Shown: positions 1 to 41,200 of the stretch, in pieces
Numbering within the stretch: the stretch's first letter is position 1
How the letters are laid out: each line of letters opens with the position of its first letter
Program-made: the position numbers and the translations under genes
The notes under the pieces: model-generated
The model's input: only the letters and a program-made list of their open reading frames with translations
What the model was told of the DNA's origin: nothing
The model's database searches: none
Assembly: GCA_017547845.1 (NCBI GenBank)
Contig: JAFYNZ010000061.1
Location: 1 to 64,000, forward strand
Direction: 5' to 3'
DNA: 64,000 bases
Source of the DNA: Muribaculaceae bacterium
Lineage (GTDB): Bacteria; Bacteroidota; Bacteroidia; Bacteroidales; Muribaculaceae

Positions 1-498
1 TCCCGAGTATTTATGTCCTCTGCTCTTGCTACCTCCACGAGCAGAATATTCCCACTCTGCTTCAGTAGGAAGACGGAATACCATACCACTCGGTCTACTA
101 TCTTTTGTCAGACTATTCAGTTTCTCTACAAACTTTTGACAGTCATTCCATGACACATTTTCCACCGGTAAATTATCACCCTTAAATTTAGATGGATTAC
201 TACCCATCACAGCCTGCCATAGTTTCTGATTGACTTCTACCTGTCCAATATAATAATCACTTAAAGTCACACTATGTTCCGGCATTTCATCTTCCTCAGC
301 ATCAACAATCTGCTCTAAGGTTGCACCCATAATGAAAGTTCCACCCTTGATCGGAATCATCTTAAACGACGCACCTCCGACCCAAAACTCTTTAACATTT
401 GGATTTGGTTCCGGTGCTATATAGTCATCACACGAAAAGATAGTTAGCGATAAAACTAACGTAACTATATATAAATATATTCTACTAATTGTTTTCAT
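1..498 (-). CDS. SUMF1/FGE-fold lipoprotein, C-terminus cut by window edge
   Basis: The first 166 codons are present; the rest lies beyond the left edge. The protein begins MKTISRIYLY and has a signal peptide ending in an IFSC-like lipobox (Cys about residue 23), so it is probably a lipoprotein. From about residue 46 it reads as a SUMF1/formylglycine-generating-enzyme fold: KGGTFIMGAT, LPVENVSWNDCQKF and FRLPTEAEWEYSARGG are landmark motifs. The C-terminal part that carries the catalytic cysteines in true FGEs is missing, so activity cannot be judged. It starts 10 bases after the stop of the PEGA/barrel gene and is probably the distal gene of the same operon. Unlike its three neighbours it has no PEGA scaffold. 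The fold is well supported; the role is unknown. Confidence 0.85.
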   Translation of the reverse strand, partial: MKTISRIYLYIVTLVLSLTIFSCDDYIAPEPNPNVKEFWVGGASFKMIPIKGGTFIMGATLEQIVDAEEDEMPEHSVTLSDYYIGQVEVNQKLWQAVMGSNPSKFKGDNLPVENVSWNDCQKFVEKLNSLTKDSRPSGMVFRLPTEAEWEYSARGGSKSRGHKYSG

Positions 499-508
499 AA
501 TGCGATAT

Positions 509-2359
509 TTAGAATTCTAAACCTAAACGGAAATTGATAGCACCTACACTTACTTTGCTATAAGTATCACCTTCAAAATTATAGGATAGCTTTGTGGATA
601 GCAGTTCATAGCCTACACTGATCAAACATCCCGCACGTTTGCCTCCTACCCTCACGCCAAGAGATGGATTAAAATAGAGACCTTTGAGATTTAGAAGCGA
701 ATAACCTACCCTAACATCTGCAAATGGCGAAAATTTAGTATTTTTTATTGGCAATGAAGCTTTAACATCTGCATAAACAGGAATGTTTATTATATTGTAG
801 TTGCATTTAAAATTTACTCCGACACCGGCACCAACAAACAGATACTTGTTTATGGCGCAACCATGTGTGGTCGAAACACCTATATTGTCATGAGGAACGA
901 CTCCGGCTGCCAATCCATAACTGAAATCGATTATGCCCTTATAATGTACTTTGTTTTTATTGTCAACATAATTTAAAACACCGCCTTTATCCGAATTACT
1001 TCCATATTCCGAGCGTTTATCGTTTCCTCGATATGAGTGGTGCAACTCTTCTGAAGTATTATCCGAAGACTTTAAGCTATCATTTGAGATATTAGCCTCT
1101 ATTAAGCTATGATTGTTTTCCGTAATAGTTACATGCTTTGTCACTGTTTGACACCCCTTCTTACTGAGTACGACTTCGTAATCACCAACAAGCATTTCAT
1201 CTACACTTAAAGGTGTATCGCCATAGCTCTTTCCATTGATGGTTACATTAGCAAACATCGGCTCGGAGAGAATATCAAGTGATCCATAGATAGGTGTCGG
1301 CTCTAAGCTAATGATTTGCGGTTCTTTTGCAACTACCTCTATCTGACGAGTGGCACTCCTATGACTGTCAAGCGACACTTCAATGTCATAGATACCCTCT
1401 GCAAGATCTTCTTTATAGTTGCCCTTGCCCATAACCAGACCATTAATTGTGATTGTCGCTTCCGGCAATGTATTAATCACTACCTCTGCAAATCGAGCAT
1501 CAAGTGTAGCCACTAATTCTGTCTGCTGACCATCTAAAATTTCGACTTCTCGAGTAAACAATGCAAATCCTGATGCTATTACGCTGACTTTATGATGACC
1601 TGATGGTATATCATATATCGTACACGGAGTAATATATGTGCGAGTATCATCTGCAATCGTCACCTTTGCTCCGGACGGAACGCTTTCAACCTTGAGCGAG
1701 CCAAATGCAGGACGCATCACAACTTTCTGCATTAATCTACTACTATCAATGACAGCCACACCCACCTCATCATGATAAAGCGATTTCTTTACACGATAGT
1801 TATATGTGCCATATGAAAGTTTCTTCTGTGTCGGAGTGATACCTACATAGTTCTCAACTCCGTGTTCGGTAATATAGACATCAGCCCCCTGCGGATCACT
1901 ATCAATAATAAAGTAACCGGTCTTTACTCGTTCTTCCTCTACCACTACGGTCACCTTGCCTGTTGTCAACTCCATACGATAGCAAGCGGCTTCTTTAAGT
2001 GGTGATGGGAAATAATAGAAACCATCTTCGGAGTCCTTGAGCTGACCAAGCACGGGGTGCATAATCTTTAGTTTCATAGTTTTAGCCGGAAGATATACCC
2101 ACCACTCCGACAACTCCGGCTTATGGATCGCCTTGGTCACACCAAGCTGACCATTGTCAAACGAAAAGTCGTTCTCCGTGGTTACAACTTTGACCAACGC
2201 ACATTTCTGTCCGTTTTGATCGATCACCGGATAATTAACTCGTGCATCAAGGTCTTGCGTCAACTCTTTAAACGACTTGACACTGATGCCACTTTGTGCA
2301 CTCGCAATCGATACGCAACACAAAGCCACCAACAACACTATAAATCTTAATCTATGCAT
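509..2359 (-). CDS. PEGA-repeat protein with C-terminal outer-membrane-like beta-barrel
   Basis: 616 aa. The signal peptide ends at about residue 22 (SIASAQ). A head of about 125 residues is shared with the next two genes upstream. Four PEGA-type beta repeats follow (about 147-218, 219-290, 291-357, 358-425), with typical phrases such as VPSGAKVTI and EGIYDIEVSL. After a polar Ser/Asn linker (about 426-470) comes a 140-residue stretch of alternating hydrophobic strands ending GAINFRLGLEF, as in small outer-membrane barrels. PEGA domains are generally extracytoplasmic and thought to bind surfaces or polysaccharide. The barrel could anchor the scaffold in the outer membrane; this is inference. 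It lies 17 bases after the two-SUMF1 paralogue and 10 bases before the SUMF1 lipoprotein, so co-transcription is likely. No enzymatic motif was seen. Confidence 0.85.
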   Translation of the reverse strand: MHRLRFIVLLVALCCVSIASAQSGISVKSFKELTQDLDARVNYPVIDQNGQKCALVKVVTTENDFSFDNGQLGVTKAIHKPELSEWWVYLPAKTMKLKIMHPVLGQLKDSEDGFYYFPSPLKEAACYRMELTTGKVTVVVEEERVKTGYFIIDSDPQGADVYITEHGVENYVGITPTQKKLSYGTYNYRVKKSLYHDEVGVAVIDSSRLMQKVVMRPAFGSLKVESVPSGAKVTIADDTRTYITPCTIYDIPSGHHKVSVIASGFALFTREVEILDGQQTELVATLDARFAEVVINTLPEATITINGLVMGKGNYKEDLAEGIYDIEVSLDSHRSATRQIEVVAKEPQIISLEPTPIYGSLDILSEPMFANVTINGKSYGDTPLSVDEMLVGDYEVVLSKKGCQTVTKHVTITENNHSLIEANISNDSLKSSDNTSEELHHSYRGNDKRSEYGSNSDKGGVLNYVDNKNKVHYKGIIDFSYGLAAGVVPHDNIGVSTTHGCAINKYLFVGAGVGVNFKCNYNIINIPVYADVKASLPIKNTKFSPFADVRVGYSLLNLKGLYFNPSLGVRVGGKRAGCLISVGYELLSTKLSYNFEGDTYSKVSVGAINFRLGLEF

Positions 2360-2376
2360 ATATCTTTCAAATCATT

Positions 2377-5232
2377 TTATTCCACACTCATTGCTAACCG
2401 CAAACCTAAACTATAACTAGTAAAATAAGGCATGTCGTTATGACGAAATGAAACTCTACAATACCTTGCATGGCTACTCATACTTCCACCACGGAAAATG
2501 CGATTATATCCAGATGAGGGACCATTAGGATTTATTTGTAAACTATTGCTGTATTCACCATACCAATCGTCACACCACTCATATACGTTGCCACTCATAT
2601 CATAGATTCCTAATTCATTAGGCAACTTAGATGCAACCACATGTGTTTGTGATGATGAATTACTATCATGCCACGCTACGCTGCCGACGTCGTTACTTCC
2701 AGAATATTTATATCCTTTACTCATATTGCCTCCTCGTGCAGCATATTCCCACTCGGCTTCAGTAAGGAGTCTAAAGTTCTGTCCAGTTAGAGAATTTAGT
2801 TTCTTTATAAACTCCTGACAATCATGCCATGACACTCGTTCTACAGGTAACTTATTTCCCTTGAAATAAGATGGATTCATTCCCATCACTACTTGCCACA
2901 ATTCTTGCGTCACTTCAGTTTCACCTATCATATAGTCACCAATTGTCACCTGATGCGTATTTTTTTCGTCAGCACCTACATCAAGACCTTGTTCGGATGT
3001 TGCACCCATTATAAATGTACCACCATTAACTTTAACCATCTCAAATGATACACCCTTGACGGTAAAAATAGTTTTATTCAGAGTATCTAATTGGGTTAGT
3101 TGATCTGGTGTCACTGATTCTACTCCGTTATCTGAGACAAGACGTAAACCTAAGGTGTCTAGTCTTCGATTTGGGACGCAGAAAATACGAAGTGACACCC
3201 GGCAACCACTCGTACGGTCAGACAAACAGCCTCCACGAATCACTCTAACAGAGCCCGAAGATGGTCCTATTGGATTAGTCTGCGAGACACTGCTGTAATC
3301 GCCATACCAATCACTACACCATTCAAAAACATTACCGCTCATATCATATAGACCTAACTCATTAGGCAACTTAGCAGCAACAGCGTGTATCTTCGATGAT
3401 GAATTATCCATATACCAAGCTACGCTACCGATATCGTTGCTTCCAGAGTACTTACAACCTCGGTTCTTTTTACCTCCTCGTGCTGCATACTCCCATTCTG
3501 CTTCGGTAGGAAGTCGGAAATTCAAGCCCGTAAGAGAATTTAGCTTCTTTATAAACTCCTGACAGTCATCCCATGACACATTCTCTACAGGCAAATAATT
3601 ACCCTTAAAATGCGACGGATTTCTACCCATCACTGCCACCCATAATTCTTGCGTGACCTCAGTTTTACCCATAAAATAGTCGCTAAGCGTCACTTTATGC
3701 GCAGGCTTTTCATCACTTCCAGCATCATCACCCTGCTCCAAGGTGGCTCCCATTGTGAACGTACCTCCTTCAATATTGACCATGCTATCTATCAGCTTTT
3801 GCAAGACTTCTTTCTGTGATGCTGTGACATTAGAACTCCAACGTGGCATCAAACCCGAAGCAAGATTTGTAGTCGATGGCGTATCGCCATACATAGCCCT
3901 ATCGTCTAAAACACCATTGCCAGAAGCATCACTGCGTATCGTCATTTCGCGACCTTGTGGCAGAGTTGCCTCTATGGTTGAGAGATTTTTTTCTGTAATA
4001 GTTACTCGCTTAGTCACTGTGGCACAACCCTCCTTACTGAGTACAACTTCGTAATCACCAACGAGTAAATTGTCTATACTCATAGGAGTATCGCCATAAC
4101 TTTTACCGTTGATAGTAACGTTGGCAAACATTGGCTGGGACTCGACATTCAATGAGCCATAGATTGGCGTTGGCTCAAGAGTAAGTTTTTGCGATTGCTT
4201 TGCCACAACCTCTATCTGTCGCGTTATGCTGCGATGATTAGCAAGCGACACTTCAATGTCATATATACCTTCTCCGAGTTCCAAACTACAGCTACCTTTA
4301 CCCTTAACCTGACCATTGACAGTGATTGTAGCTCCGGACAATGTATTGATAATTACCTCTGCAAATCGAGCATCAAGCACGACATCCAACGTTGATAGCT
4401 TTTCATCCTTTATCTCTATTTCTTTAGTAACTGATGCGTATCGTGGTGCAACAATATTGAGTTTATATCTTCCCGATGCTAATTGTTCAATCGTACATGG
4501 AGTCTTAAACTCACGCGAATCATTAAAAATGGTCACTGTTGCTCCCGGAGGATTTGACAACACTTTTAATGAACCAAATGCAGGACGTAATGAAATATCT
4601 TGAATGACACGCGATTGGTCTATAACTGCCACACCGACCTCATCATGATAAAGCGATTTCATGATGCGATAGCTGTATTTACCATAGGTCAAGTTCTTAT
4701 AGAAAGGTGTATTGCCGACATAATTCTCGACACCATCTTCATTTAAATATACATGTGCACCTTCCGGCTTGCTATTAATAACCAAATAACCAGTCTTTTT
4801 ACGTTCTTCTTCGATGGTAACAATCACCTTGCCAGTTGTCAACTCCATTCGATAGCAAGTAGACTCCTTTAGTGGAGCAGGAAAATAGTAATAACCATCT
4901 TCAGAATCCTTATACTGACCAAGTACAGGATGCATAATCTTTAGCTTCATAGTCTTAGCCGGCAGATAGATCCACCACTCTGATAGTTCCGGCTTGTGAA
5001 TAACCTTGGTAACACCAAGCAAACCGTTATCAAACGAAAAGTTGCTCTCTGTAGTAACAATCTTAACCAACGCACATTTCTGACCATTTTGGTCAGTCAC
5101 CGGATAACTGACGCGTGCATCAAGGTCTTGCGTCAACTCCATAAACGACTTGACACTGATGCCACTTTGTGCGCTCGCAATCGACACGCAGCACAAGGCC
5201 ACCAACAATACTATAAATCTAATCTTATGCAT
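2377..5232 (-). CDS. PEGA-repeat protein with two SUMF1/FGE-fold domains
   Basis: 951 aa. Signal peptide, head and four PEGA repeats (to about residue 430) are strikingly similar to the flanking paralogues. Two complete SUMF1-fold domains follow (about 483-705 and 735-951). Each has the GGTFxMGAT start, LPVExVSWxDCQEF, a PTEAEWEYAARGG-type core (LTEAEWEYAARGG in the second) and YDMSGNVxEWCxDWYG. In true FGEs two cysteines four residues apart follow RGGSY and bind copper. Here the matching segments read RGGCLSDRTSGC and RGGSMSSHARYC, so only the second cysteine is kept in each and formylglycine formation is unlikely. The domains may serve in binding or structure, as in other SUMF1-fold proteins of this phylum (GldK/GldJ type). 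Gaps to neighbours are 17 bases on both sides, consistent with one operon. Confidence 0.88.
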   Translation of the reverse strand: MHKIRFIVLLVALCCVSIASAQSGISVKSFMELTQDLDARVSYPVTDQNGQKCALVKIVTTESNFSFDNGLLGVTKVIHKPELSEWWIYLPAKTMKLKIMHPVLGQYKDSEDGYYYFPAPLKESTCYRMELTTGKVIVTIEEERKKTGYLVINSKPEGAHVYLNEDGVENYVGNTPFYKNLTYGKYSYRIMKSLYHDEVGVAVIDQSRVIQDISLRPAFGSLKVLSNPPGATVTIFNDSREFKTPCTIEQLASGRYKLNIVAPRYASVTKEIEIKDEKLSTLDVVLDARFAEVIINTLSGATITVNGQVKGKGSCSLELGEGIYDIEVSLANHRSITRQIEVVAKQSQKLTLEPTPIYGSLNVESQPMFANVTINGKSYGDTPMSIDNLLVGDYEVVLSKEGCATVTKRVTITEKNLSTIEATLPQGREMTIRSDASGNGVLDDRAMYGDTPSTTNLASGLMPRWSSNVTASQKEVLQKLIDSMVNIEGGTFTMGATLEQGDDAGSDEKPAHKVTLSDYFMGKTEVTQELWVAVMGRNPSHFKGNYLPVENVSWDDCQEFIKKLNSLTGLNFRLPTEAEWEYAARGGKKNRGCKYSGSNDIGSVAWYMDNSSSKIHAVAAKLPNELGLYDMSGNVFEWCSDWYGDYSSVSQTNPIGPSSGSVRVIRGGCLSDRTSGCRVSLRIFCVPNRRLDTLGLRLVSDNGVESVTPDQLTQLDTLNKTIFTVKGVSFEMVKVNGGTFIMGATSEQGLDVGADEKNTHQVTIGDYMIGETEVTQELWQVVMGMNPSYFKGNKLPVERVSWHDCQEFIKKLNSLTGQNFRLLTEAEWEYAARGGNMSKGYKYSGSNDVGSVAWHDSNSSSQTHVVASKLPNELGIYDMSGNVYEWCDDWYGEYSNSLQINPNGPSSGYNRIFRGGSMSSHARYCRVSFRHNDMPYFTSYSLGLRLAMSVE

Positions 5233-5249
5233 ACATCTTTCTATTCCTT

Positions 5250-7325
5250 TTATTTCACACTAATAGCCAAACGAAAACCGAGGTTATAGTTACTATTATT
5301 AGGTATGTATAAGTAGCGATCTGATATTCTACAATACCTTGCTTTAAAACTCCAACTACCCCCTCTAATCACGCGATGAGATCCACTTGAAGGTCCTTGG
5401 GGATTTACTTGAGAATTACTGGTATAGTCACCATACCAATCACTACACCATTCATATACATTGCCACTCATATCGTATAGACCTAACTCATTAGAAGACT
5501 TAGATGCAACAGTATGCGTCCTTGATGATGAGTTGCCAAAGTAATAAGCCACATTTTCAATCACATTGCTTCCAGAGAATTTATATCCCTTACTTTTATT
5601 GCCTCCTCGTGCAGCATATTCCCACTCTGCTTCTGTAGGAAGTCGGAAATTTAAACCAGTAAGATAGTTTAATTTCTTTATAAACTCTTGGCAATCATCC
5701 CATGATACACTTTCTACCGGTAAATCTTCACCTCTGAAACGAGACGGATTGCTTCCCATTACAGCGTCCCACAATTCTTGCGTCACCTCCGTATTCGCAA
5801 TCATAAAATCGCTAATAGTAACCTTATGCGATGGTATTTCATTAGAAAACACGTCACCATCTTGCTCTGTAGTTGCACCCATAGTAAACCTTCCGCCTTT
5901 AATATATACCATATTATTACAAAGTTTTTGTAATATTGAACGCTGAACATTTGTTATAGATGAATTCCATAATGGTTGTAATCCATTAATTTTATCAGAT
6001 TTACTATCATCTTCAATCATATTAGCATCAGATGGTATAGTGTTACCTTGCGACAAATTTGCTTCTATAATAGACAATGTATTCTCAGTTATACTTACAT
6101 GCCTGGTCTCCATGACATAACCCTGTTTAGAAAGAACAACTTCGTAATCACCTACAAGCAAATTTTCAATACTTAATGGAGTATCTCCATAATTCTGTCC
6201 GTTGATAATCACATTAGCAAACATTGGCTGAGATTCTATATCAAGCGAACCACTAATAGGAATCGGCTCAAGCGTAAGGGTTTGCGGTTGATTTGACACC
6301 ACTTCTATCTGTCGAGTTACGGTACGATGCTTATCAAGCGAAACTTCTATGTCATATATACCTTCGCCAAGTTCTTCACTATAATTGCCTTTACCCTTAA
6401 CTTGACCATTAATCGTAATTATTGCTTCGGGTAGTGTATTGATTGACACTATTGCAAATCTCGCGTCAAGAGTAGCTACCAATTCGGTCTGCTGACCATC
6501 CTTAATCTCAATTTCGCGAGAAAATGAAGTATATCTCGATGAAACAATATTTACTCTGTGAGTTCCAGAAGGAAGTTGATCGATAACACAAGGAGTCGTA
6601 AATTCACGTAAGTCGTTCTCAATAGTTACAGTTGCACCCGATGGACTACTTGTAACGCTAAGAGAACCAAAGGCAGGCTGTAATGCAAGGTCATGAATTA
6701 TGCGAGTATTATTTATAACAGCCACACCAACATTATCGTGATATAAAGATTTTTTTACGCGATAATTATATGTTCCATATGGCATTTTCTTATAAAAAGG
6801 AGTAGTACCCGCATAATTTTCGATTCCACCCTCTGTAATATATACATGTGCATGCTCAGGTACACTATTGATTACCAGGTAACCCGTTTTTACTCTCTCT
6901 TCTTCAACAGTCACCCTAACCTTACCGGTTGTCAACTCCATGCGATAGCAAGTTGCCTCCTTAAGTGGCGTTGGAAAATAATAGAAACCATCTTCAGAGT
7001 CTTTAAGCTGACCAAGCACAGGGTGCATAATCTTTAGTTTCATAGTTTTTGCCGGTAGATATACCCACCATTCCGATAATTCCGGATTGTGAATAGCCTT
7101 GGTAACGCCAAGCTGACCATTGTCAAACGAGAAATCGCTCTCTGTGGTTACAACTTTAACCAAAGCACATTTCTGGCCATTTTGATCCGTCTCGGGATAA
7201 TTAACACGAGCGTCAAGATCTTGCGTCAACTCTGAGAACACTTTGACACTGATGCCACTCTGTGCTCCCGCAATCAATACGCAACACAAAGCTACCAACA
7301 ATACTATAAATCTAATCTTATGCAT
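5250..7325 (-). CDS. PEGA-repeat protein with one SUMF1/FGE-fold domain
   Basis: 691 aa and the first of the three scaffold paralogues in transcription order. The signal peptide ends AGAQ at about residue 22, followed by the shared head and four PEGA repeats (about 147-425), a short linker and one SUMF1-fold domain (about 475-691). Motifs are GGRFTMGATTEQ, LPVESVSWDDCQEF, FRLPTEAEWEYAARGG and YDMSGNVYEWCSDWYG. The active-site region reads RGGSWSFKARYC: the first catalytic cysteine of FGE is replaced by Phe and the second is kept, so this is probably not a formylglycine enzyme. The gene starts 40 bases after the 611-aa exported protein and sits 17 bases before the next paralogue. The DNA looks more AT-rich than the housekeeping genes. 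Probably cell-surface; function unknown. Confidence 0.87.
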   Translation of the reverse strand: MHKIRFIVLLVALCCVLIAGAQSGISVKVFSELTQDLDARVNYPETDQNGQKCALVKVVTTESDFSFDNGQLGVTKAIHNPELSEWWVYLPAKTMKLKIMHPVLGQLKDSEDGFYYFPTPLKEATCYRMELTTGKVRVTVEEERVKTGYLVINSVPEHAHVYITEGGIENYAGTTPFYKKMPYGTYNYRVKKSLYHDNVGVAVINNTRIIHDLALQPAFGSLSVTSSPSGATVTIENDLREFTTPCVIDQLPSGTHRVNIVSSRYTSFSREIEIKDGQQTELVATLDARFAIVSINTLPEAIITINGQVKGKGNYSEELGEGIYDIEVSLDKHRTVTRQIEVVSNQPQTLTLEPIPISGSLDIESQPMFANVIINGQNYGDTPLSIENLLVGDYEVVLSKQGYVMETRHVSITENTLSIIEANLSQGNTIPSDANMIEDDSKSDKINGLQPLWNSSITNVQRSILQKLCNNMVYIKGGRFTMGATTEQDGDVFSNEIPSHKVTISDFMIANTEVTQELWDAVMGSNPSRFRGEDLPVESVSWDDCQEFIKKLNYLTGLNFRLPTEAEWEYAARGGNKSKGYKFSGSNVIENVAYYFGNSSSRTHTVASKSSNELGLYDMSGNVYEWCSDWYGDYTSNSQVNPQGPSSGSHRVIRGGSWSFKARYCRISDRYLYIPNNSNYNLGFRLAISVK

Positions 7326-7365
7326 ATATATCTATTTATAATCAACCACGAAGCTAAATCTGAAA

Positions 7366-9201
7366 TTAAAAATGTTCAGGTCCGATAATACCCCAAGATG
7401 GATCTGGTTGCTCTTGCCAAGCACGAACGTGGATAATAGGCTTATCTGGGTCATTTACATCAACTAAAAGGAATAGATAGCCCGTGTCACCATAATTAGC
7501 AGAGAAGTAATCTTGCTTAATCTGTACTGCGTAAACCTCTCCGCCTTTTCCCATCTTTTTGACATCATTATTAGCAAATTTAATATTGATGAATTCATTA
7601 TATCTGAATATATCTTTTAGTCGATTTATATATTCCGACTTATTGTATTTTGTCAATTTGACGTAGCGATTATTACGATAGCCTGTTTCAACGTTACCAA
7701 CGAGTTGCTGAACTACCTTTCCCGAAATAATCAATGCATCTTCCGAGAATATAGATTCCAAATAGTCAAGACGCTCAAGAGCATAGGCTGTTTTATAATT
7801 TTCAAGGAATGATTGCAACACTCCCTTAGCCTCACTACTCCAATCAACATTATGGTTGGTAAATATATCATCTTGAGCAACTTCACTCAACCCAAATGAA
7901 ATATTATCAATTTTACCTGATCCTTCAAATACAAATACTACATTCTCAACAAAACTTCTATTACCGGAAAAAGCAAATCTCATCGGAATACTTCTGCAAT
8001 ATACATATCCGGCAAGTTCTGTAAATTCAAGAGCCATATCGTTGCCTATGATACGAGCCTTGCCATAGTTTATTAGCTTTGTAAAAATATCATAACCATC
8101 AGCCGTAAAATAAGATTGTACTGATGCATATGACCTTGATTTAATAGCTTGCACTATCTTATCCATTGTGCCAACAAGAGGCATCAACGCTTCTTGAGAC
8201 AATTTATTTGAAACCTCTTCTACATCATTAGATGATGTGGCATTTTCTGCAGACTGTGAACTTGCTAAATTTCCTTCAATATTCACTTCATCTGATAATA
8301 CTTTTTCTGTTACCGGAATACTGATTTTAGCTTGTGGATACACTATCTGTTTGACAGTTTCAAGCACCTGATTGACTTCCTTATCACATTGAGACTCATT
8401 AAAATACATACACTCATATTTGAGAATAAGTTGATCAACGGTAATACCTGGTTTTAGCTCTACCAGACCTTTTCCATCGCGAGCTGTATTCACATGACTC
8501 CAGTCATTGCCTACCCAATAGGTATAATCAATGCTTGCAACAGGCGTACCTTTATATGAAAACTCAACCTCGTATACATTGCCATCACTTTGTTTGCCTT
8601 TGAAATTAGCCTTAAGATTGGAAAATATTTCGTCAAGTTGATTCTTGATGAGCAACGATGCACTCATTTCCTTACCTGCAAATTTAACCTTTACATCTTC
8701 TCCAGGGCGAAGACTATTAAGCAACATATTGGCCCAATAGTAGTATCTAATAGCATCATCTATCTGCTTTATCTCTAAAGCTGTAGATGCCACATTTATC
8801 ATCTCTTTAATTTTGTCCTTACGAGCCTCAAAAATCTTATCTAATTCATTCTTCTTAATGTAACGAAACACCTTAGCAGTAGGTTCGTCTGAAAGCACAA
8901 GTCGTTCAGTATTAGTCAACGTAGCAGAAGAATATGTACGCATCTTTTGTTCAAAACTCACTTGTGATTTCACATTTTGTCCTTTTTGCTCGTTTGATAT
9001 AGTAGTAGACTTCTCACCACTGACATGAACTGCAATCTGACTTATTAAATCTACCAGAGCTTGATCGTCAGCAAGTCGCAGAGTCTCACCTTCTCCTTCA
9101 CCCCACAAATATTCAGGTGAAGACTTGATTTCTGAATATGACTGAGCATTGGACACAAAAGCCAATGACACTAACAAAAAAATAGAGATAAACCTATACA
9201 T
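7366..9201 (-). CDS. Exported protein, LPP20-like N-terminus and repeated C-terminal domains
   Basis: 611 aa with a signal peptide (MYRFISIFLLVSLAFVSNAQ). Residues about 21-125 (GEGEGETLRLADDQALVDLI and following) resemble the LPP20/FlgP-like fold of secreted proteins, as does the 224-aa protein upstream. A helical stretch (about 130-170, TALEIKQIDDAIRYYYWANM) and a beta-rich middle follow. Two C-terminal segments (about 340-450 and 460-600) look like related NTF2/cystatin-type folds; the last contains GYLFLLVDVNDPDKPIIHVR, a phrase I associate with exported Bacteroidales proteins of unknown function. No catalytic motif was seen. It lies 40 bases before the first PEGA/SUMF1 gene and probably belongs to the same transcription unit. 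Domain names are inference from pattern; function unknown. Confidence 0.75.
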   Translation of the reverse strand: MYRFISIFLLVSLAFVSNAQSYSEIKSSPEYLWGEGEGETLRLADDQALVDLISQIAVHVSGEKSTTISNEQKGQNVKSQVSFEQKMRTYSSATLTNTERLVLSDEPTAKVFRYIKKNELDKIFEARKDKIKEMINVASTALEIKQIDDAIRYYYWANMLLNSLRPGEDVKVKFAGKEMSASLLIKNQLDEIFSNLKANFKGKQSDGNVYEVEFSYKGTPVASIDYTYWVGNDWSHVNTARDGKGLVELKPGITVDQLILKYECMYFNESQCDKEVNQVLETVKQIVYPQAKISIPVTEKVLSDEVNIEGNLASSQSAENATSSNDVEEVSNKLSQEALMPLVGTMDKIVQAIKSRSYASVQSYFTADGYDIFTKLINYGKARIIGNDMALEFTELAGYVYCRSIPMRFAFSGNRSFVENVVFVFEGSGKIDNISFGLSEVAQDDIFTNHNVDWSSEAKGVLQSFLENYKTAYALERLDYLESIFSEDALIISGKVVQQLVGNVETGYRNNRYVKLTKYNKSEYINRLKDIFRYNEFINIKFANNDVKKMGKGGEVYAVQIKQDYFSANYGDTGYLFLLVDVNDPDKPIIHVRAWQEQPDPSWGIIGPEHF

Positions 9202-9224
9202 AGTAATTAATTTATATTAGTAGG

Positions 9225-9263
9225 TTGTCACAGCACCCACTATTATAGTGAGTACTGTGACAA
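9225..9263 (-). terminator. Long inverted repeat between the 224-aa and 611-aa genes
   Basis: Nine-base arms TTGTCACAG/CTGTGACAA (9225-9233, 9255-9263) enclose a second paired block CACT/AGTG (238-241, 247-250 of this thousand). It fills about half of the 85-base gap. No U-run follows on the minus strand, so it may be an attenuator or an RNA-processing or stability hairpin that sets different levels of the two genes rather than a full terminator. Confidence 0.5.
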
Positions 9264-9286
9264 ATATTTAGATATTATGCGCTAGA

Positions 9287-9961
9287 TTACCAACCTAAAA
9301 CTTCATCAAGCTGATCATGAAGTTTATTTCCCTTCTCTTCCAAATCTTTGCGAATAATTTTCTTTGCTGCTTCCATAGCCATATTATGATTATATGCTAT
9401 GCGAACAAGAACTTCCTTATTCTTATTAGGAAGATCACGATAGAGTTCCACAACCGGAATAACTCGACCAATGCTTTGCGAAATTAAATTCTTGCTTGCC
9501 AAAACAGTTTCCGCAATAGAAGCAGCTTCTTCTTCAGCAAGTTGCTTATTTGCAACAGTATTTTCTACCAACGCAGTAATCTCGGTCTGTATCTGACCTG
9601 CAAGATTCTGCTTTGCCAACTCAAGAGCTTGCATCTTAGCAGCATCGTAAGTTTCGCCGATACTCATTGCCTCACCCATAATATACAGAGGATAACCTGA
9701 TTGGTCGACATCCATCTGCATCATCATTGAGCGATCAAGCTGCTTTTCTAGCGTAAGTGTTCCCGGAGTTGTTTGCCAACCTTCTTTCTTAAATTTCTTT
9801 GCTTCTTTACGAGCATCTTTTGACGCTTTGCTATTAAGAGCCTTGCGCTGCTGAGACACCTGTTCTTTACGTTGCTTCTGCTGATCTTTTGTCAACTGAG
9901 CTTCCATTGGTGCGACTGCAAAAAGACCGAACACCAAAACTGACAATAATAATTTTTTCAT
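9287..9961 (-). CDS. Exported LPP20-like protein with basic N-terminal segment
   Basis: 224 aa. Signal peptide of about 21 residues (ends APMEAQ), then a very basic, Gln/Lys-rich helical stretch (about 22-60, KDQQKQRKEQVSQQRKALNS), then a domain from about residue 70 (GYPLYIMGEAMSIGETYDAA, ALELAKQNLAGQIQTEI) resembling the LPP20 family of secreted proteins. A helical tail ends LDEVLGW. Its own promoter is visible at 10090-10119. It precedes the 611-aa protein and PEGA/SUMF1 run with an 85-base gap holding a large hairpin, so it may be the first, more strongly expressed member of that group. It has no lipobox. Function unknown; the LPP20 assignment is by pattern only. Confidence 0.78.
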   Translation of the reverse strand: MKKLLLSVLVFGLFAVAPMEAQLTKDQQKQRKEQVSQQRKALNSKASKDARKEAKKFKKEGWQTTPGTLTLEKQLDRSMMMQMDVDQSGYPLYIMGEAMSIGETYDAAKMQALELAKQNLAGQIQTEITALVENTVANKQLAEEEAASIAETVLASKNLISQSIGRVIPVVELYRDLPNKNKEVLVRIAYNHNMAMEAAKKIIRKDLEEKGNKLHDQLDEVLGW

Positions 9962-10089
9962 AAAATAATTATTTGGGTTAATATTGATAGTTAATTATTT
10001 ACTTAAAATCAAACAACACTAATCCCTTTAAATTCAAACGATTGCAAGTGATATATAAAACCAAAATTTAGTGTTTAAAAAGTTTTTTA

Positions 10090-10119
10090 CAAAATTAGTC
10101 AAAAATTAAGGTTTTCCAA
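10090..10119 (-). promoter_or_regulatory. Bacteroidetes-type promoter for the 224-aa exported protein
   Basis: On the minus strand, -7 box TAATTTTG (10090-10097) and -33 TTG (10117-10119) are separated by 19 bases. This predicts a 5' leader of roughly 125 nt. It is the only clear promoter upstream of the PEGA/SUMF1 run. Confidence 0.55.
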
Positions 10120-10267
10120 TATTTACACTGTTAATAAATGTTAATACTAAATATTAAACAAAAAATCATATAAGCTAGAGTAGAAACCAATTTGCAAGCA
10201 GAAAATGAGTATGAATTGTTATTAAAGTCCTCTTCTCAAAGTGACACATTTAAAGGGGGGAATAGAT

Positions 10268-10296
10268 AAGGTCGAACGTACGGGACATTCGACCTT
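10268..10296 (-). terminator. Hairpin downstream of the OmpP1/FadL gene
   Basis: Nine-base perfect arms AAGGTCGAA/TTCGACCTT with an 11-base loop, 65 bases past the stop of the OmpP1-type gene. No clear U-run follows. Confidence 0.5.
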
Positions 10297-10360
10297 GATA
10301 CTTTCAGGATTTTACAAAATTTGAATACAAAGATTAACTACTGATATAAATGTGTGCTAA

Positions 10361-11992
10361 TTAGAAGCGGAAGCCCATTGAGAGCGCGATTTGATGGTTT
10401 TCTGATGTCACCTTCGCCTGTGGACTTTTCACTGAAGGTGTTTCAGGGTCAGGAGTAAATGCATGCCATTCGCTTGATCTGTTTCTATAGACGTAAGCAA
10501 GGTCGCAATAGAAGCCTTTTGAACGGAAACCAACACCACAAGTCACATAGTTGGTCGTATTATCCAATGCGTATGATGGATTAGTGCCGGCTGTGTACAT
10601 TGTCATAGCATTGTCTCTAACTTCTTGCTTCACAGGCGATGACACATTAGCATATCCTGCACGCAAACTAACTTCCGGAAGCACACGATATTCAGCACCA
10701 AGTCTCACTGTATTTGTCGCTTGATAATAGTTGTCTATGTCTTGATTTTCGTAATAAAAGTCCGGCAATATATCGCTATTAAAACCCCAACCGAATTCGT
10801 TGTAACTTGATAGGTTCATATCTTGATAGTTTGACCATTCGTAGTCACCGCTAATGATAAATTTCGAGCCGATTACACCTGCTGCGCTGGCTATAATCTT
10901 CCATGGAGTGCGATACTTGTAGTCGTTATAACCCCAGTATCCGTCATTAGTCATTGCTGAACCGGGACGTATGTCGGTGTTAGGATAGTCATACTCTGTA
11001 GATGCGATGTATTCCTCTTCAAGGGCGTACCAAGTAGGGGTATGGAACGCGAAACCGAGGCGAAGTTCTTGGATTGGTTTAACGATGAAACCAAGCTTAT
11101 AGTTGAAACCTGTGCCTCTGACCATATAGCGATTGTGAATATTCCAATTTGCTTCAGTCACAACGGTAGACCCATCAGGATTAGAAATGTTTGCTCCATT
11201 AAGTTTTTCACCCCATAAGACTGACTGATTGAAGGCAATAGATGTGATACCAAAGTCCATACCCCAGAACACTACGTTCTTGATATTACCTCCGAAACTG
11301 ATGTTGTACTCATCGATGCCTCCTGTTTCCAATACACTAAATCGTCCAACGCCTGTCGTATTGTTGCCCCACAAACCATTCCAGTGAGTATTAGCGTCTC
11401 GACCGATTGGATTTACAAGATAGGAGTCATAGCCAAGAATAGAAATCCATGGTGAAACATAACCGCCATCATTAGGATTGTATGGGTCATAATGATCGGT
11501 AGTCGTAACATCGCCGACCGTAAGATTATTAGCATTAGACACTCCGGCAATATAGTTACTCATAGAGTTTGACAACGAGATAGCTCCGTCATATTTACGA
11601 TTGAATGAAGCTGCTTTATTGTAGGTGAAACCCCAATTGAAATAAGGCATTACCGAATTGTTGAGATTTACTGAGCCGATATATCCGACATTATTGAGCA
11701 AAAACTTGAAGTCGCTACCTTTCATAGTGATATCGGAATTTGTGGTATAATTCTGGATATCAAAATTGACAGTTACACCGATTTCTGACGAACGATAGAC
11801 GCCAAGACCACCGGGATTCTGCGACAATGTAGTCATATCACCACCTAACGCACCGAAAGCACCACCCATCGACATAAATCGAGATGTACCTTTAAGGTCT
11901 GCTTGATTAAATTGATATGCATCTAATGCGCTTTGTGCATTTGCACCTAATGCGGCGAGTACGAGACCGCAACCTAAGAATATTTTCTTCAT
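10361..11992 (-). CDS. OmpP1/FadL-family outer membrane protein
   Basis: 543 aa. The signal peptide (MKKIFLGCGLVLAALGANAQ) is followed by the conserved N-terminus of this family in Bacteroidales: TSRFMSMGGAFGALGGD and LSQNPGGLGVYRSSEIG. The rest alternates hydrophobic strands with Asn/Tyr-rich loops and ends HQIALSMGFRF with a terminal Phe, as expected for a beta-barrel inserted by BAM. FadL homologues carry hydrophobic compounds across the outer membrane; Bacteroides members are often labelled hemin receptor, but neither substrate can be read from the sequence. It lies 75 bases after the Tyr/His/Gly-rich gene with a 12-bp hairpin in the gap, so the two may be separate units. Confidence 0.88.
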   Translation of the reverse strand: MKKIFLGCGLVLAALGANAQSALDAYQFNQADLKGTSRFMSMGGAFGALGGDMTTLSQNPGGLGVYRSSEIGVTVNFDIQNYTTNSDITMKGSDFKFLLNNVGYIGSVNLNNSVMPYFNWGFTYNKAASFNRKYDGAISLSNSMSNYIAGVSNANNLTVGDVTTTDHYDPYNPNDGGYVSPWISILGYDSYLVNPIGRDANTHWNGLWGNNTTGVGRFSVLETGGIDEYNISFGGNIKNVVFWGMDFGITSIAFNQSVLWGEKLNGANISNPDGSTVVTEANWNIHNRYMVRGTGFNYKLGFIVKPIQELRLGFAFHTPTWYALEEEYIASTEYDYPNTDIRPGSAMTNDGYWGYNDYKYRTPWKIIASAAGVIGSKFIISGDYEWSNYQDMNLSSYNEFGWGFNSDILPDFYYENQDIDNYYQATNTVRLGAEYRVLPEVSLRAGYANVSSPVKQEVRDNAMTMYTAGTNPSYALDNTTNYVTCGVGFRSKGFYCDLAYVYRNRSSEWHAFTPDPETPSVKSPQAKVTSENHQIALSMGFRF

Positions 11993-12022
11993 ATCTGTGT
12001 GATTTATTTTCTAAATATGGAT

Positions 12023-12055
12023 ATAGTCTCAAACAGATAATCCGTTTGAGACTAT
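12023..12055 (-). terminator. Perfect 12-bp hairpin between the Tyr/His/Gly-rich gene and the OmpP1 gene
   Basis: Arms ATAGTCTCAAAC/GTTTGAGACTAT with a 9-base loop, starting about 12 bases past the stop codon of the upstream minus-strand gene. It is preceded on the minus strand by a T-run but not followed by one. Probably a terminator or 3'-end stabiliser. Confidence 0.6.
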
Positions 12056-12067
12056 TAAAAAATACAT

Positions 12068-13135
12068 TTATCTATGTCTGCCTCCGCCACGGTTTCCACT
12101 ACCGCCACGACTGCCACCTCTGCTCGAGCCGGAGCTACCAGAACTACTACGGTTTGTTCGACTACCGGAATTAAATCCGCTATTATTTCGTGTAGTGTTG
12201 CTACTACGTTGAATGTTGCTGCTACTACGATTCGACTGACGGTTAGCACCTTGAGTCACACCTGTCTTTTTTCCTGAGTTGGAATTTGATGCACCGACTC
12301 TATCATTCGTACGACCTCCTCTGTTGTTATTTTCCTTGCCTACAGATTCAGAAGCGCGATGATCAGCATTATCTCTGAATCCATTGCTATTTACTCTATA
12401 GCCCTTGCCTGTGCCTCCGGTGTATCTGTGTCCATCATTAGAATGACCTCCTCCACGATGACCGCTCACACTACCCTGATGACGATGACTATCAGGGCGA
12501 GTATTGCCAGCCCAACCATCATTGTGATGATTTGTGTGGTGACCACCATGACCTGCGTGGTGGTGATGATGCCCCGGTCCTACAGGGTGATGTGGGTGAT
12601 GTGGATAAGATGGCCCCCAACCAGGATACCATGGATCATACCATGGATCATACCATGCCCAAGTCGGACCCCAAGCCCAACTATACCAATAACTATATGG
12701 CGAATAATAATAGTAAGGCGAATAGTAATATGGAGAGTAGTAGACCGAATAATACGGGCTGTACCATGTAGCAAGCGATGGAACACCATAATTGTAGACA
12801 ATCTCTACGTTGCCATAAGAACTATTGATAACCTCATCAAATACTTCAGCATTATCAACCACAATCGTCGGATTGTAGTACTTCTGAATTTGCTTAGTAT
12901 AGACAAAGTCCTCACCATTGCTTATCACAGAGCCAATGGTATCAATCTCGCTTTCGTAGTAGCCACCAAATCTATTATACTCGTCGACATCTCTGCCATT
13001 CACGACTTCGGTATTTTCATTTACCACAACCTCACTTTTCTTATTGGGATTGAAGTAAATATCATCATATTCGTCAGCAATCACACAAAGAGAGCCGACA
13101 AACATCATTGATAAAATAAAAAAACATCTTTTCAT
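12068..13135 (-). CDS. Secreted low-complexity Tyr/Trp-, His- and Arg-Gly-rich protein
   Basis: 355 aa with a signal peptide ending near residue 20 (CVIADEYDD). A short acidic N-terminal part (about 21-125) is followed by a Tyr/Pro/Trp repeat block (about 130-180, YSPYYYSPYYYYSPY then WYDPWYDPWYPGWG), a His block (HHPHHPVGPGHHHHH), and a long Ser/Asn/Arg/Gly tail ending SGNRGGGRHR. The WYDPWYDPWY phrase comes from a 12-base tandem repeat near 12637-12657. The composition suggests an extended, disordered secreted or surface protein that could bind metal through the His block. No enzyme domain was recognised. The long reading frame on the opposite strand is an effect of this biased composition. 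Confidence 0.8.
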   Translation of the reverse strand: MKRCFFILSMMFVGSLCVIADEYDDIYFNPNKKSEVVVNENTEVVNGRDVDEYNRFGGYYESEIDTIGSVISNGEDFVYTKQIQKYYNPTIVVDNAEVFDEVINSSYGNVEIVYNYGVPSLATWYSPYYSVYYSPYYYSPYYYYSPYSYWYSWAWGPTWAWYDPWYDPWYPGWGPSYPHHPHHPVGPGHHHHHAGHGGHHTNHHNDGWAGNTRPDSHRHQGSVSGHRGGGHSNDGHRYTGGTGKGYRVNSNGFRDNADHRASESVGKENNNRGGRTNDRVGASNSNSGKKTGVTQGANRQSNRSSSNIQRSSNTTRNNSGFNSGSRTNRSSSGSSGSSRGGSRGGSGNRGGGRHR

Positions 13136-38152: not shown

Positions 38153-38200
38153 CGACAATGACTGCAATCATTCTCGCAAGAGAGATTGCGCATTGATGAT

Positions 38201-41200
38201 ATGAAGGAAGTAAAGAACCATAAGATACGATTTGGAACGTGGGTGGTGATCGCTATTGCATCACTGCTCGCTACTGCTATATCCTATGGCCAATACATTA
38301 AGTCCGAACTTCCTCCCCCACCACCTCCTCCGGAAAACTCTCTGACAGAAAATGTTGACACAACTCACTCCACTATCTATGAAGTGAGTCCGACTATACC
38401 CGTAAATTATGAAGATTTCGAGGGAGGAGAGTATCCTGTAGACCTCCGTGACCCTTCCAACATAAAGACCGAGGCTGAATACGACCCTCAGACAGGCATG
38501 TATGTCATTCGCACAAAGGTGGGTGACTACGAAATCATCACACCATATCAGATGGGTGCTGACCAATACAATAAGATATCGGTGCGCAATGATATGATGG
38601 ACTATTATCGTCAACGCAATGCCGAGACTTTTGAACAGAAGGACAAAGAACCTTTCAATATCTTTGATATGAACTTTGCCCTTGGGCCACTTGAAAAAGT
38701 GTTTGGTCCCGGTGGCGTGAGATTGACCACTCAAGGATCAATCCAATTGTCGATGGGTGTTAAGAGCAACAAGACCGACAACCCTGCTCTATCACTCAAC
38801 TCTCGACGTAAGACATATTTCGACTTCGACCAGAAAATTCAAGCGACCATCAATGCATCGGTAGGCGACAAGATGAAATTCGATATGACCTACAACACCG
38901 ATGCGACTTTCGACTTTGACTCTCAAAAGCTTAAGTTGGCATACGAAGGCAAGGAAGATGAAATCATCAAAAACATCGAAGCGGGTAATGTCAGCATGAC
39001 CACAGGGTCGAGTCTTATCCGTGGTAGTACCGCCCTATTCGGCTTTAAGACCAAATTGCAATTTGGCAAACTCACACTCACTGGATTGTTGTCACAACAA
39101 AACAGTGAGTCGCAGACTATTAGCACCACCGGCGGCGTGCAATCGACCAAATTCTCTGTCAAAGCAGACGAATATGATGCCAACCGTCACTTCTTCCTCG
39201 GTCACTTCTTCTTCGATAATTACGACAACTTTGCATCAAAGTTGCCATACGTTTCATCAGGTGTCAACATCACACGCATCGAGGTGTGGGTAACCAATAA
39301 GACCGGCAACTACAACGAGTCACGCAACTTCGTGGCATTCATGGACCTTGGTGAAAATGAACGATTGGCCAACAACTATTGGGTACCCAATGGCAGTAGC
39401 ATGACACCATCCAACCAGTCGAACGATCTTCTTAATGTCATTAAGAATGAGTATCCTAATGCTCGCAACATCAATCAAGTGACACAAGCATTGGAACCTC
39501 TTGGCGCATACGGCATCCTGGGTGGTCAAGACTACGAGAAGGTGGAAAGCGCTCGACTCCTCAAAGAAAGCGAGTATACTCTCAATTCCACACTCGGATA
39601 TATCTCTCTTAAATCAGCACTATCCACCGACGAAGTGCTTGCGGTAGCTTATGAGTATACCTATATGGGTAAGGTTTACCAAGTCGGTGAATTTTCAAGC
39701 GACGTAACCAACACCGAGCAATCTCTTTACCTTAAAATGCTCCGTGGCACAACCGTATCGCCTAAATTACCGATGTGGAAATTGATGATGAAAAACGTCT
39801 ATTCGCTTGGAGCATACCAACTTCAAAACAAGAATTTCAAGCTCAACATCAAATACCTTAGCGATACGACCGGTACAGAAATCGTTTACCTTCCGGTCGG
39901 CAACATCTCCAACCAGCCATTGCTGCAGGTGATGAATCTCGACCGTATAGACTCCAATCAAGAATCCAATTCCGACGGTTTCTTTGACTATATAGAGGGC
40001 TACACTGTCCTATCTTCATCAGGCAAGATTATATTCCCTGTCGCAGAGCCATTTGGTTCGAACCTTGAGAAAAAGATCGGCGATCCACGCTTGGCAGAAC
40101 CGTATGTCTACAAGGAACTCTACGACTCTACGCTGACGGTAGCAAAACAGTTTGCCGACAAAAACAAATTCACCATCACCGGTGAATACCAAGCTTCCAA
40201 CGGTGCACAGATTCGTCTTAATGCGATGAACGTGCCACGAGGATCGGTTGTCGTAACGGCCGGTGGTGTGACTCTTGTGGAAAATAGCGACTATACCGTC
40301 GACTACAATATGGGTATTGTCACTATCACCAATCAAAGCATCATCGACTCCGGCACAAATGTCAGCGTAAGCCTTGAAAATCAGTCGACTTTCAGCATGC
40401 AACGCAAGACCTTGCTCGGACTTGATGCACAATACAAATTCAGCAAAGATTTCACTCTCGGTGCTACATTGCTTCACTTCTCAGAAAAGGCTCTGACTGA
40501 AAAGGTAAACATTGGTGATGAGGTGATTAATAATACAATGTGGGGAGCCAACCTCTCATTCAATAAGAAATTCATGTGGTTGACCAATCTTCTTAACAAG
40601 ATTCCGACCATCAATGCCGTAGCACCATCATCAATCAACCTTACGGCTGAATTTGCACAACTCGTGCCACACCAGCAGAAAAGCGGGTCAAATCAGGGCT
40701 CAAGCTACATCGATGACTTTGAGACTACTCAGACAGGCATCGACCTACGCTCGCCGTATTCATGGTTTCTCGCACCTACGCCCTACGACACAAGTGCCGA
40801 TGCTCTCTTCCCTGAAGCGACTTTGACCAATAATGTCGACTACGGTAAAAATCGTGCACTCCTCTCATGGTACTATATCGATAGACTTTTCACACAGAAA
40901 AACTCATCAATGGCTCCGGGTTATATCAAGAATGACCTCGACCAATTGTCAAATCCTTATGTCAGAGAAGTCACATCACGAGAAATCTTCCCTAATCGCG
41001 AGTTAAGCTACGGTGAGTCTTCGACCATTCAGACTCTCAACCTCTCGTTCTACCCTAATGAACGCGGTCCTTACAACCTTGATGCAACCAACATTGACAG
41101 CGAAGGCAACCTTTTGTATCCTGAAAAACGTTGGGGTGGTATCATGCGCAAAATGGATAACTCTAATTTTGAAAACTCCAACATTGAGTATGTGCAATTC

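Follow-up and report, generated by a model that had tools for sequence, protein, structure and literature searches.

The stretch of DNA analysed here, called the window below, comprises the first 64,000 bases of contig JAFYNZ010000061.1 (C61) of a Muribaculaceae bacterium (GenBank assembly GCA_017547845.1; 2.32 Mb in 69 contigs, 89.8% complete). Labels in C stand for contigs of this source genome, those in G for other genomes, and those in L for DNA stretches that we examined. At the start of the window, on the reverse strand, the gene of a secreted LPP20-domain protein precedes those of three paralogues, which share a signal peptide, a head domain (HEAD) and four PEGA repeats and end in one SUMF1 domain, in two SUMF1 domains, or in a barrel-like part; a SUMF1 lipoprotein comes last (Table 1). 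A first-pass annotation, made from the letters of the sequence, had proposed the order, strand, coordinates, and C-terminal types of the three paralogues and the lipoprotein, and all of these were confirmed (the barrel-like end weakly), as were its gaps of 10–17 bases between these four genes (the gaps measure 40, 17, 17, and 10 bases from the LPP20 gene downstream). The PEGA repeats scored 130.7, 148.4, and 130.1 bits in the three paralogues (curated cut-off 20.8), which also match CarboxypepD_reg, and the SUMF1 (FGE-sulfatase) domains of the window proteins scored 79, 294.4, and 167.8 bits (Pfam cut-off 23.3). The shared parts had been described as almost the same. This was true of the signal peptide (82–91% ungapped identity) and the head (85–92%), but the PEGA part is only 65–67% identical, so that the description fits the head and not the whole stalk. 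The SUMF1 lipoprotein is indeed the last gene, but it is incomplete: because position 1 of the window is the start of C61, the gene is cut by the assembly.

Table 1. Features of the operon and its upstream neighbours in the window (aa, amino acids)
Feature	Position	Strand	Remark
Secreted protein, 224 aa, upstream of the LPP20 gene; possible member of the locus	9287..9961	-	best Pfam match E 0.085
Secreted protein, 611 aa, with N-terminal LPP20 domain; precedes the three paralogues	7366..9201	-	Pfam LPP20 1.6e-6
HEAD, four PEGA and one SUMF1, 691 aa, type I signal peptide	5250..7325	-	
HEAD domain of the 691-aa protein, residues 23-146	6888..7259	-	alignment A3; A6 including relatives
Variable region in the SUMF1 tip of the 691-aa protein (alignment columns 219-251)	5283..5378	-	hypervariable NNY codons; template AAY match
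HEAD, four PEGA and two SUMF1, 951 aa	2377..5232	-	
HEAD domain of the 951-aa protein	4795..5166	-	alignment A3
Variable region, first SUMF1 of the 951-aa protein	3154..3249	-	hypervariable NNY codons; template AAY match
Variable region, second SUMF1 of the 951-aa protein	2410..2505	-	hypervariable NNY codons; template AAY match
HEAD, four PEGA and barrel-like C-terminus, 616 aa	509..2359	-	
HEAD domain of the 616-aa protein	1922..2293	-	alignment A3
Probable outer-membrane beta-barrel end of the 616-aa protein, last residue Phe	512..973	-	weak OMP_b-brl match
Start of the SUMF1 lipoprotein (Cys then Asp-Asp); contig end precedes its variable region	1..498	-	

The cut gene could be followed into other contigs. 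The ends of C61 (read on the reverse strand) and C62 are identical over 141 bases, C62 and C66 (read on the reverse strand) start with identical 141 bases, and contig ends and starts overlap by 28 bases. Besides the C62 end and the 28-base contig starts, nothing in the genome matched positions 1–120 of the window at more than 84%. The simplest path through these ends would run from C61 through C62 to C66. C62 may instead form a separate circle, in which case C61 would still lead to C66 unless other joins were lost. Along this path, the lipoprotein would carry three SUMF1 domains, and after it would come another barrel-ended protein and another lipoprotein, the latter with four SUMF1 domains. 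The genome would thus encode 16 SUMF1 tips in all: ten belong to the operon read in this order, C23 adds two, in a lone HEAD-PEGA-SUMF1-SUMF1 protein, and C8 another four, in a lipoprotein. That identical tracts of 141 bases flank different tips suggests recombination between paralogues.

When the 16 SUMF1 domains were aligned, their C-terminal stretch (about the last 35 residues) was found to alternate between conserved and hypervariable columns. In proteins diversified by a diversity-generating retroelement (DGR), variable sites have AAY codons, which admit no stop codon, and in those of solved structure the variable residues form an organised binding site, as stated in the part of PMC5006420 available to us. 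Randomisation of the adenines of AAY codons leaves NNY. Hypervariable codons were NNY in 208 of 252 cases in the variable region of the tips, as against 99 of 163 at hypervariable columns elsewhere (Fisher 1.2e-6). In the template of G146, a genome from a different genus of the family, all 14 AAY codons fell on columns that are hypervariable here, versus 2 of the 23 other codons (Fisher 2e-8). At these 14 columns, NNY codons made up 188/209 in the source genome (mean entropy 2.85), 688/727 in DGR loci (entropy 2.99; n = 52, a group that may include open reading frames running over templates), 330/392 in other SUMF1 domains of the family (3.28), 64/98 in a conserved HEAD-SUMF1 form (1.13), and 49/98 in seven GldK-like controls (0.11), of which the C25 protein was checked against NCBIfam and the other six were named by length and motif. 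This comparison took domains with at least 12 of the 14 columns and merged identical rows, which left 15 from the source genome, whereas the count of 208/252 used all 16.

The copies on C23 and C66 have kept the pattern of template copying, with a conserved third position and varied first and second positions. In the four least-decayed copies, which were chosen after their NNC content had been seen, mismatches per codon at positions 1, 2, and 3 amounted to 0.38, 0.34, and 0.19 in the variable region and to 0.16, 0.14, and 0.36 upstream of it. The groups in the window, on C62, and on C8 have drifted at third positions. The nearest foreign template, that of L128, differed from one of the C23 variable regions (C23a) at 17 of 33 adenines and at 5 of 57 other positions. 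TvpA of Treponema denticola was the nearest solved structure to the tips (9.2e-43), and it aligned through the variable region. By their sequences, we class the SUMF1 tips as hypervariable domains of the DGR type with a C-type-lectin fold. The first-pass annotation had stated that it knew of no characterised system with this layout. This did not stand for the display arms, since tips of the DGR type whose nearest solved structure is TvpA belong to a characterised kind of molecule.

Complete DGRs were found on similar proteins in other genomes. A template pattern with AAY sites matched in two of the 198 genomes of the family, G146 and G149, both times inside a DGR cassette. That of G146 (L064, 58–6090) comprises a PP2C phosphatase, a protein kinase, the SUMF1 target, an accessory gene whose product matches Pfam HRDC, the reverse transcriptase (RT), and the template, and that of G149 (L065, 400–4338) has a kinase-SUMF1 fusion and an RT split over two frames. 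With a wider template pattern, 90 stretches were obtained from a collection of 84,980 species; among the 80 of them that were listed, 66 had a DGR-type RT, 14 had no RT, and seven had a PEGA+SUMF1 protein (L111, L124, L128, L136, L137, L149, and L153). The RTs of L124 and L149 exceeded the Pfam RVT_1 cut-off. Template and target differed at 21/31 adenines versus 0/73 other positions in L149, and at 17/32 versus 1/72 in L124, 16/33 versus 0/71 in L128, 20/34 versus 0/70 in L136, 12/35 versus 1/69 in L153, and 14/29 versus 2/75 in L111 (PEGA+SUMF1 protein at 591–2834). This count took in variable regions that lie inside the examined stretch and have at most 12 non-A mismatches; such regions were found for 45 of 81 templates and for none of the remaining 36, where many stretches were cut short. 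HEAD is also present in L124, L149, and L153; the stretches L128, L136, and L137 begin inside the gene. No LPP20 homologue was seen within the examined stretches of L128, L136, L137, L149, and L153. In L124, the order is HEAD-PEGA-SUMF1, HRDC, RT, template, and LPP20, which places its DGR within a locus of the kind seen in the window. The narrow template pattern had no match in viral contigs. A separate observation concerns genus g18, of which nine genomes (G017, G060, G095, G135, G146, G164, G180, G187, and G193) have 12–15 strong SUMF1 matches each, possibly a large repertoire of DGR targets in one Muribaculaceae genus.

A trace of a DGR was found in the source genome itself. Behind the variable region of the last SUMF1 domain on C66 lies an HRDC-like stub of about 47 codons (model positions 1–47, 33.5 bits), which contains one in-frame stop; between it and the next gene, nothing matched an RT. 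On C8 and C23, the sequence behind the SUMF1 genes yielded no significant match to an HRDC or RT stub. In a tree of 82 SUMF1 domains (39 from DGR loci, 22 others of the family, 7 HEAD-SUMF1, and the 14 own domains that were long enough), the own domains formed one group against the 68 others with a support of 0.985. No GldK row was long enough for the tree, which is therefore effectively unrooted, and this support is that of the split between own domains and the rest. The nearest outside tips were those of L137 and L153, both of which have a DGR and PEGA+SUMF1, and the C66 copy adjoining the stub had the shortest distance to DGR targets (0.36) among the 14. SUMF1 matches (E up to 1e-30) numbered 0–2 in 15 genomes of the same genus versus 15 in the source genome. 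We read these relations as the gain of one DGR target, its multiplication, and the loss of its DGR.

We also considered that a live DGR, in the approximately 10% of the genome that is unassembled or on a mobile element, still diversifies the tips in trans. Four copies on C23 and C66 do retain NNC at 11–14 of 15 sites, and the two C23 copies, C23a and C23b, use the same codon for 16 of 17 identical residues of the variable region and for 32 of 52 upstream, which, with a completeness of 89.8%, speaks for this possibility. Yet BLAST of the assembly with the variable region of C23a returned known SUMF1 places and short weak matches; exact patterns found no template there either, although a template unlike both C23a and the patterns would have escaped. 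The stub adjoins the last SUMF1 of C66, and the third positions have drifted in three groups as described above. A search of the source assembly with the RT of the G146 DGR gave no match, nor did a search for bAvd, for which no control gave a match either. The sole RVT_1 match of the assembly (L007 on C40, 8953–10611, forward strand), considered as a DGR RT, turned out to be a defence RT of the AbiP2 type (PADLOC 3e-162). We consider a live DGR acting in trans unlikely and assume that the DGR has gone rather than escaped assembly.

The explanation that we hold to be very probable is that DGR-diversified tips with a lectin fold were multiplied to 16 and that the DGR core was lost, leaving a frozen set of binding specificities. 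Before its loss, the RT would have made copies of a template RNA in which bases were inserted at random wherever the template has an adenine; as such copies took the place of the 3' end of the target gene, AAY codons would have become random NNY codons. The SUMF1 domains would be binding tips of the C-type-lectin fold with DGR-diversified last 35 or so residues, carried on PEGA stalks with one shared head or, in the contig order proposed above, on lipoproteins with three or four tips, next to a barrel-ended sibling that probably anchors in the outer membrane. With the DGR core lost from the lineage, the broken HRDC accessory stub would be its sole remnant in the assembly, while tandem duplication and recombination would have multiplied the target into 16 different tips that are now inherited as binding specificities. 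What carries this explanation can be seen in the sequences: the gene set, the hypervariability that matches a template, the complete DGRs on PEGA-SUMF1 relatives, the stub, and the expansion in one clade. More tentatively, the 16 tips, as the last products of hypermutation, may form an inherited repertoire on stalks and multi-tip lipoproteins in which recombination, acting where constant parts are identical, now makes new combinations, like germ-line variable gene segments, on a conserved Bacteroidales head-PEGA/LPP20 envelope locus into which DGRs insert.

Several observations weigh against this explanation. The 89.8%-complete assembly yielded neither a DGR-type RT nor bAvd nor a template, so that no DGR is demonstrable as acting here. 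The variable regions of the window are far from the 79 templates compared with them (best 18–22 non-A mismatches), and third positions have diverged in them no less than upstream. In L137, template and target differed at 15/32 adenines but also at 8/72 other positions. The strict template pattern occurred in only 1 of 30 other head-bearing genomes tested, so that most of these either lack this type of DGR or carry a template that deviates from the pattern. The adjacency of C61, C62, and C66 is one that we infer. Finally, when synonymous choice alone was considered, the NNY excess was not significant over other hypervariable columns (p 0.25; over all other columns, p 4e-4), so that part of the excess stems from the choice of amino acids. 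This last result, like the identical 141-base tracts between paralogues with different tips, would also suit ordinary positive selection plus gene conversion, the DGR-like pattern being then coincidental. Coincidence would have to account for the 14 of 14 template AAY codons on hypervariable columns, for an NNY proportion of 0.90 versus 0.50 in the GldK-like controls, for the HRDC stub, and for DGR targets being the nearest neighbours in the tree, and we regard it as very improbable.

The SUMF1 proteins might alternatively be enzymes, or paralogues of the type IX secretion ring lipoprotein GldK/PorK, with which they have the SUMF1 domain in common, mounted on PEGA scaffolds. The NCBIfam models of GldK, EgtB, and PvdO do match window proteins, and formylglycine-generating enzymes and PorK were among the Protein Data Bank (PDB) matches. 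The GldK scores, however, were 53.6, 157.7, and 99 bits against an equivalog cut-off of 350, and those of EgtB and PvdO also remained under their cut-offs. Furthermore, a true GldK, which passes this cut-off with 506.3 bits, is encoded separately on C25, and the variable-region columns hardly vary among the seven GldK-like proteins, unlike in the tips. There is thus hardly any probability left for this view. As a separate observation, SUMF1 proteins in Microcystis phage records (NC_008562, KF356199, and others) are annotated as kinases or hypothetical proteins.

LdtA of Legionella is reportedly a hypervariable DGR lipoprotein displayed at the cell surface; it is said to be an active DGR target without a PEGA stalk, unlike the window proteins. 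TvpA and other DGR variable proteins of T. denticola (PDB 2Y3C) have, according to the available part of PMC4891356, a SUMF1/FGE-type tip with a C-terminal variable region, as here. The T. denticola DGR described there also resembles the source genome in having several targets per genome, many of them predicted lipoproteins, and an HRDC accessory gene, and target genes persist there as leftovers in strains devoid of RT and template. In contrast to T. denticola, the tips of the source genome are mounted on PEGA stalks that have one head in common or stand in arrays of two to four, they share an operon with barrel-ended siblings, and the stub of an accessory gene marks the loss of the DGR. Orphan DGR targets are thus known from T. 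denticola, and what is new is the stalked, multiplied array. The target domains of human-microbiome DGRs given in the accessible portion of PMC4159848 include FGE-sulfatase (42) and CarboxypepD_reg (5), and as the PEGA proteins of the window match CarboxypepD_reg, some of the latter five could be of this kind; unlike here, that portion names no PEGA domain, barrel-sibling operon, or DGR loss. PEGA and DGR are named in separate systems in the available text of PMC7159879. The literature searched, where sources were available in part, held no recognisable account of PEGA-stalked DGR targets, of a head/LPP20 locus, or of a multiplied orphan array.

The head of the three window proteins had no Pfam or NCBIfam match (E up to 0.1) with its best stretch there. 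Its search in Bacteroidales, which the first-pass annotation had proposed, found it in 27 of 198 Muribaculaceae genomes (E up to 1e-3) and, with a wider profile, in 27 of 295 genomes of the order (E up to 1e-6); the alignment A3 run against a genome-contig collection gave 169 pattern stretches, none of which tblastn confirmed. In the relatives, surveyed at one or two head places per genome, the head runs into a barrel-like or a SUMF1 end. Of the 26 other genomes of the family with a head, 17 have a homologue of the LPP20 protein in the stretch that holds the head, in several cases one of only about 300 residues, and such a homologue adjoins the head in three of five loci found at the order level besides the window. 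The neighbour of the barrel form was flagged as a lipoprotein by the lipobox pattern in 8 of 11 relative loci; the lipoprotein of the locus is of the SUMF1 type in L055 and of a BACON-domain type in L057, where a homologue of the 224-residue protein also lies beside the LPP20 gene. The barrel profile was seeded with six of the relatives' proteins, so that their barrel-end matches are not independent. Two further observations were made on head genes. In seven stretches (L220, L221, L222, L227, L228, L229, and L230), a short HEAD-SUMF1 protein of 365–381 residues with an LPP20 homologue nearby shows little hypervariability and is possibly a conserved ancestral form, and two head genes of one genome (L053 and L054 of G048) have an in-frame TAG at a similar place.

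The small beta-barrel proposed for the end of the 616-residue protein was borne out weakly. This end matched Pfam OMP_b-brl with an E of 0.0061, and the same family was matched by 4 of 12 aligned relatives (best 5.9e-4); single members matched other barrel families, and the matches shown in full fall under curated cut-offs. A strand-alternation test did no better than shuffles (7 strands versus a mean of 6.6), and a PDB search with this end returned nothing at E up to 10. The barrel-ended sibling would anchor in the outer membrane. The lipoproteins of the source genome start with Cys-Asp-Asp, Cys-Asp-Glu, or Cys-Asn-Asp, which published acidic export signals resemble without equalling them (available part of PMC5080379). 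The PEGA-SUMF1 proteins have type I signal peptides, as judged by eye, and were not flagged by the lipobox pattern; with such signals, their route outward, perhaps via the barrel sibling, is presumed, as are the display of their tips and ligand binding at the cell surface.

The modular cell-surface assembly of the first-pass annotation held as far as the envelope gene set, the shared head, and the exchangeable ends are concerned, but the DGR-type variable regions of the SUMF1 tips had been missed. Taken on its own, as an outer-membrane anchor with display arms on a common stalk and no diversification, it is favoured by the recurrence of the head with barrel-like or SUMF1 ends, of adjacent lipoproteins, and of the LPP20-type gene. 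It leaves the template-matched hypervariability and the HRDC stub unexplained, and we judge it improbable in this form; its elements are absorbed in the explanation by a DGR since lost.

A scan of positions 1–12500 for sigma-70 promoters found 40, against 41.2 expected, and one for terminators found 6, against 6.5 expected; a Bacteroidetes promoter pattern (TTTG/TANNTTTG) was absent from the same region and occurred five times elsewhere in the window. With no such signal above chance, it is from the spacing of the genes alone that we infer a single message. Rfam and tRNA scans of the window gave no match. Elsewhere in the window, a secreted protein of 355 residues with Tyr/Ser/Pro-rich, His-rich, and Gly/Arg-rich stretches is encoded at 12068–13135 on the reverse strand (no Pfam or NCBIfam match at E up to 0.1), and one open frame of 2487 residues extends over 38186–45649 on the forward strand.

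These findings tie an uncharacterised envelope locus of Bacteroidales, made up of a head-PEGA protein, a barrel-like sibling, a lipoprotein, and an LPP20-type gene, to programmed protein diversification. The source genome would offer a natural case of a hypervariable receptor set after the loss of its mutagen, and because relatives with and without complete DGRs share the same scaffold, the ligands of the tips and any selection on the repertoire since its freezing are directly testable.

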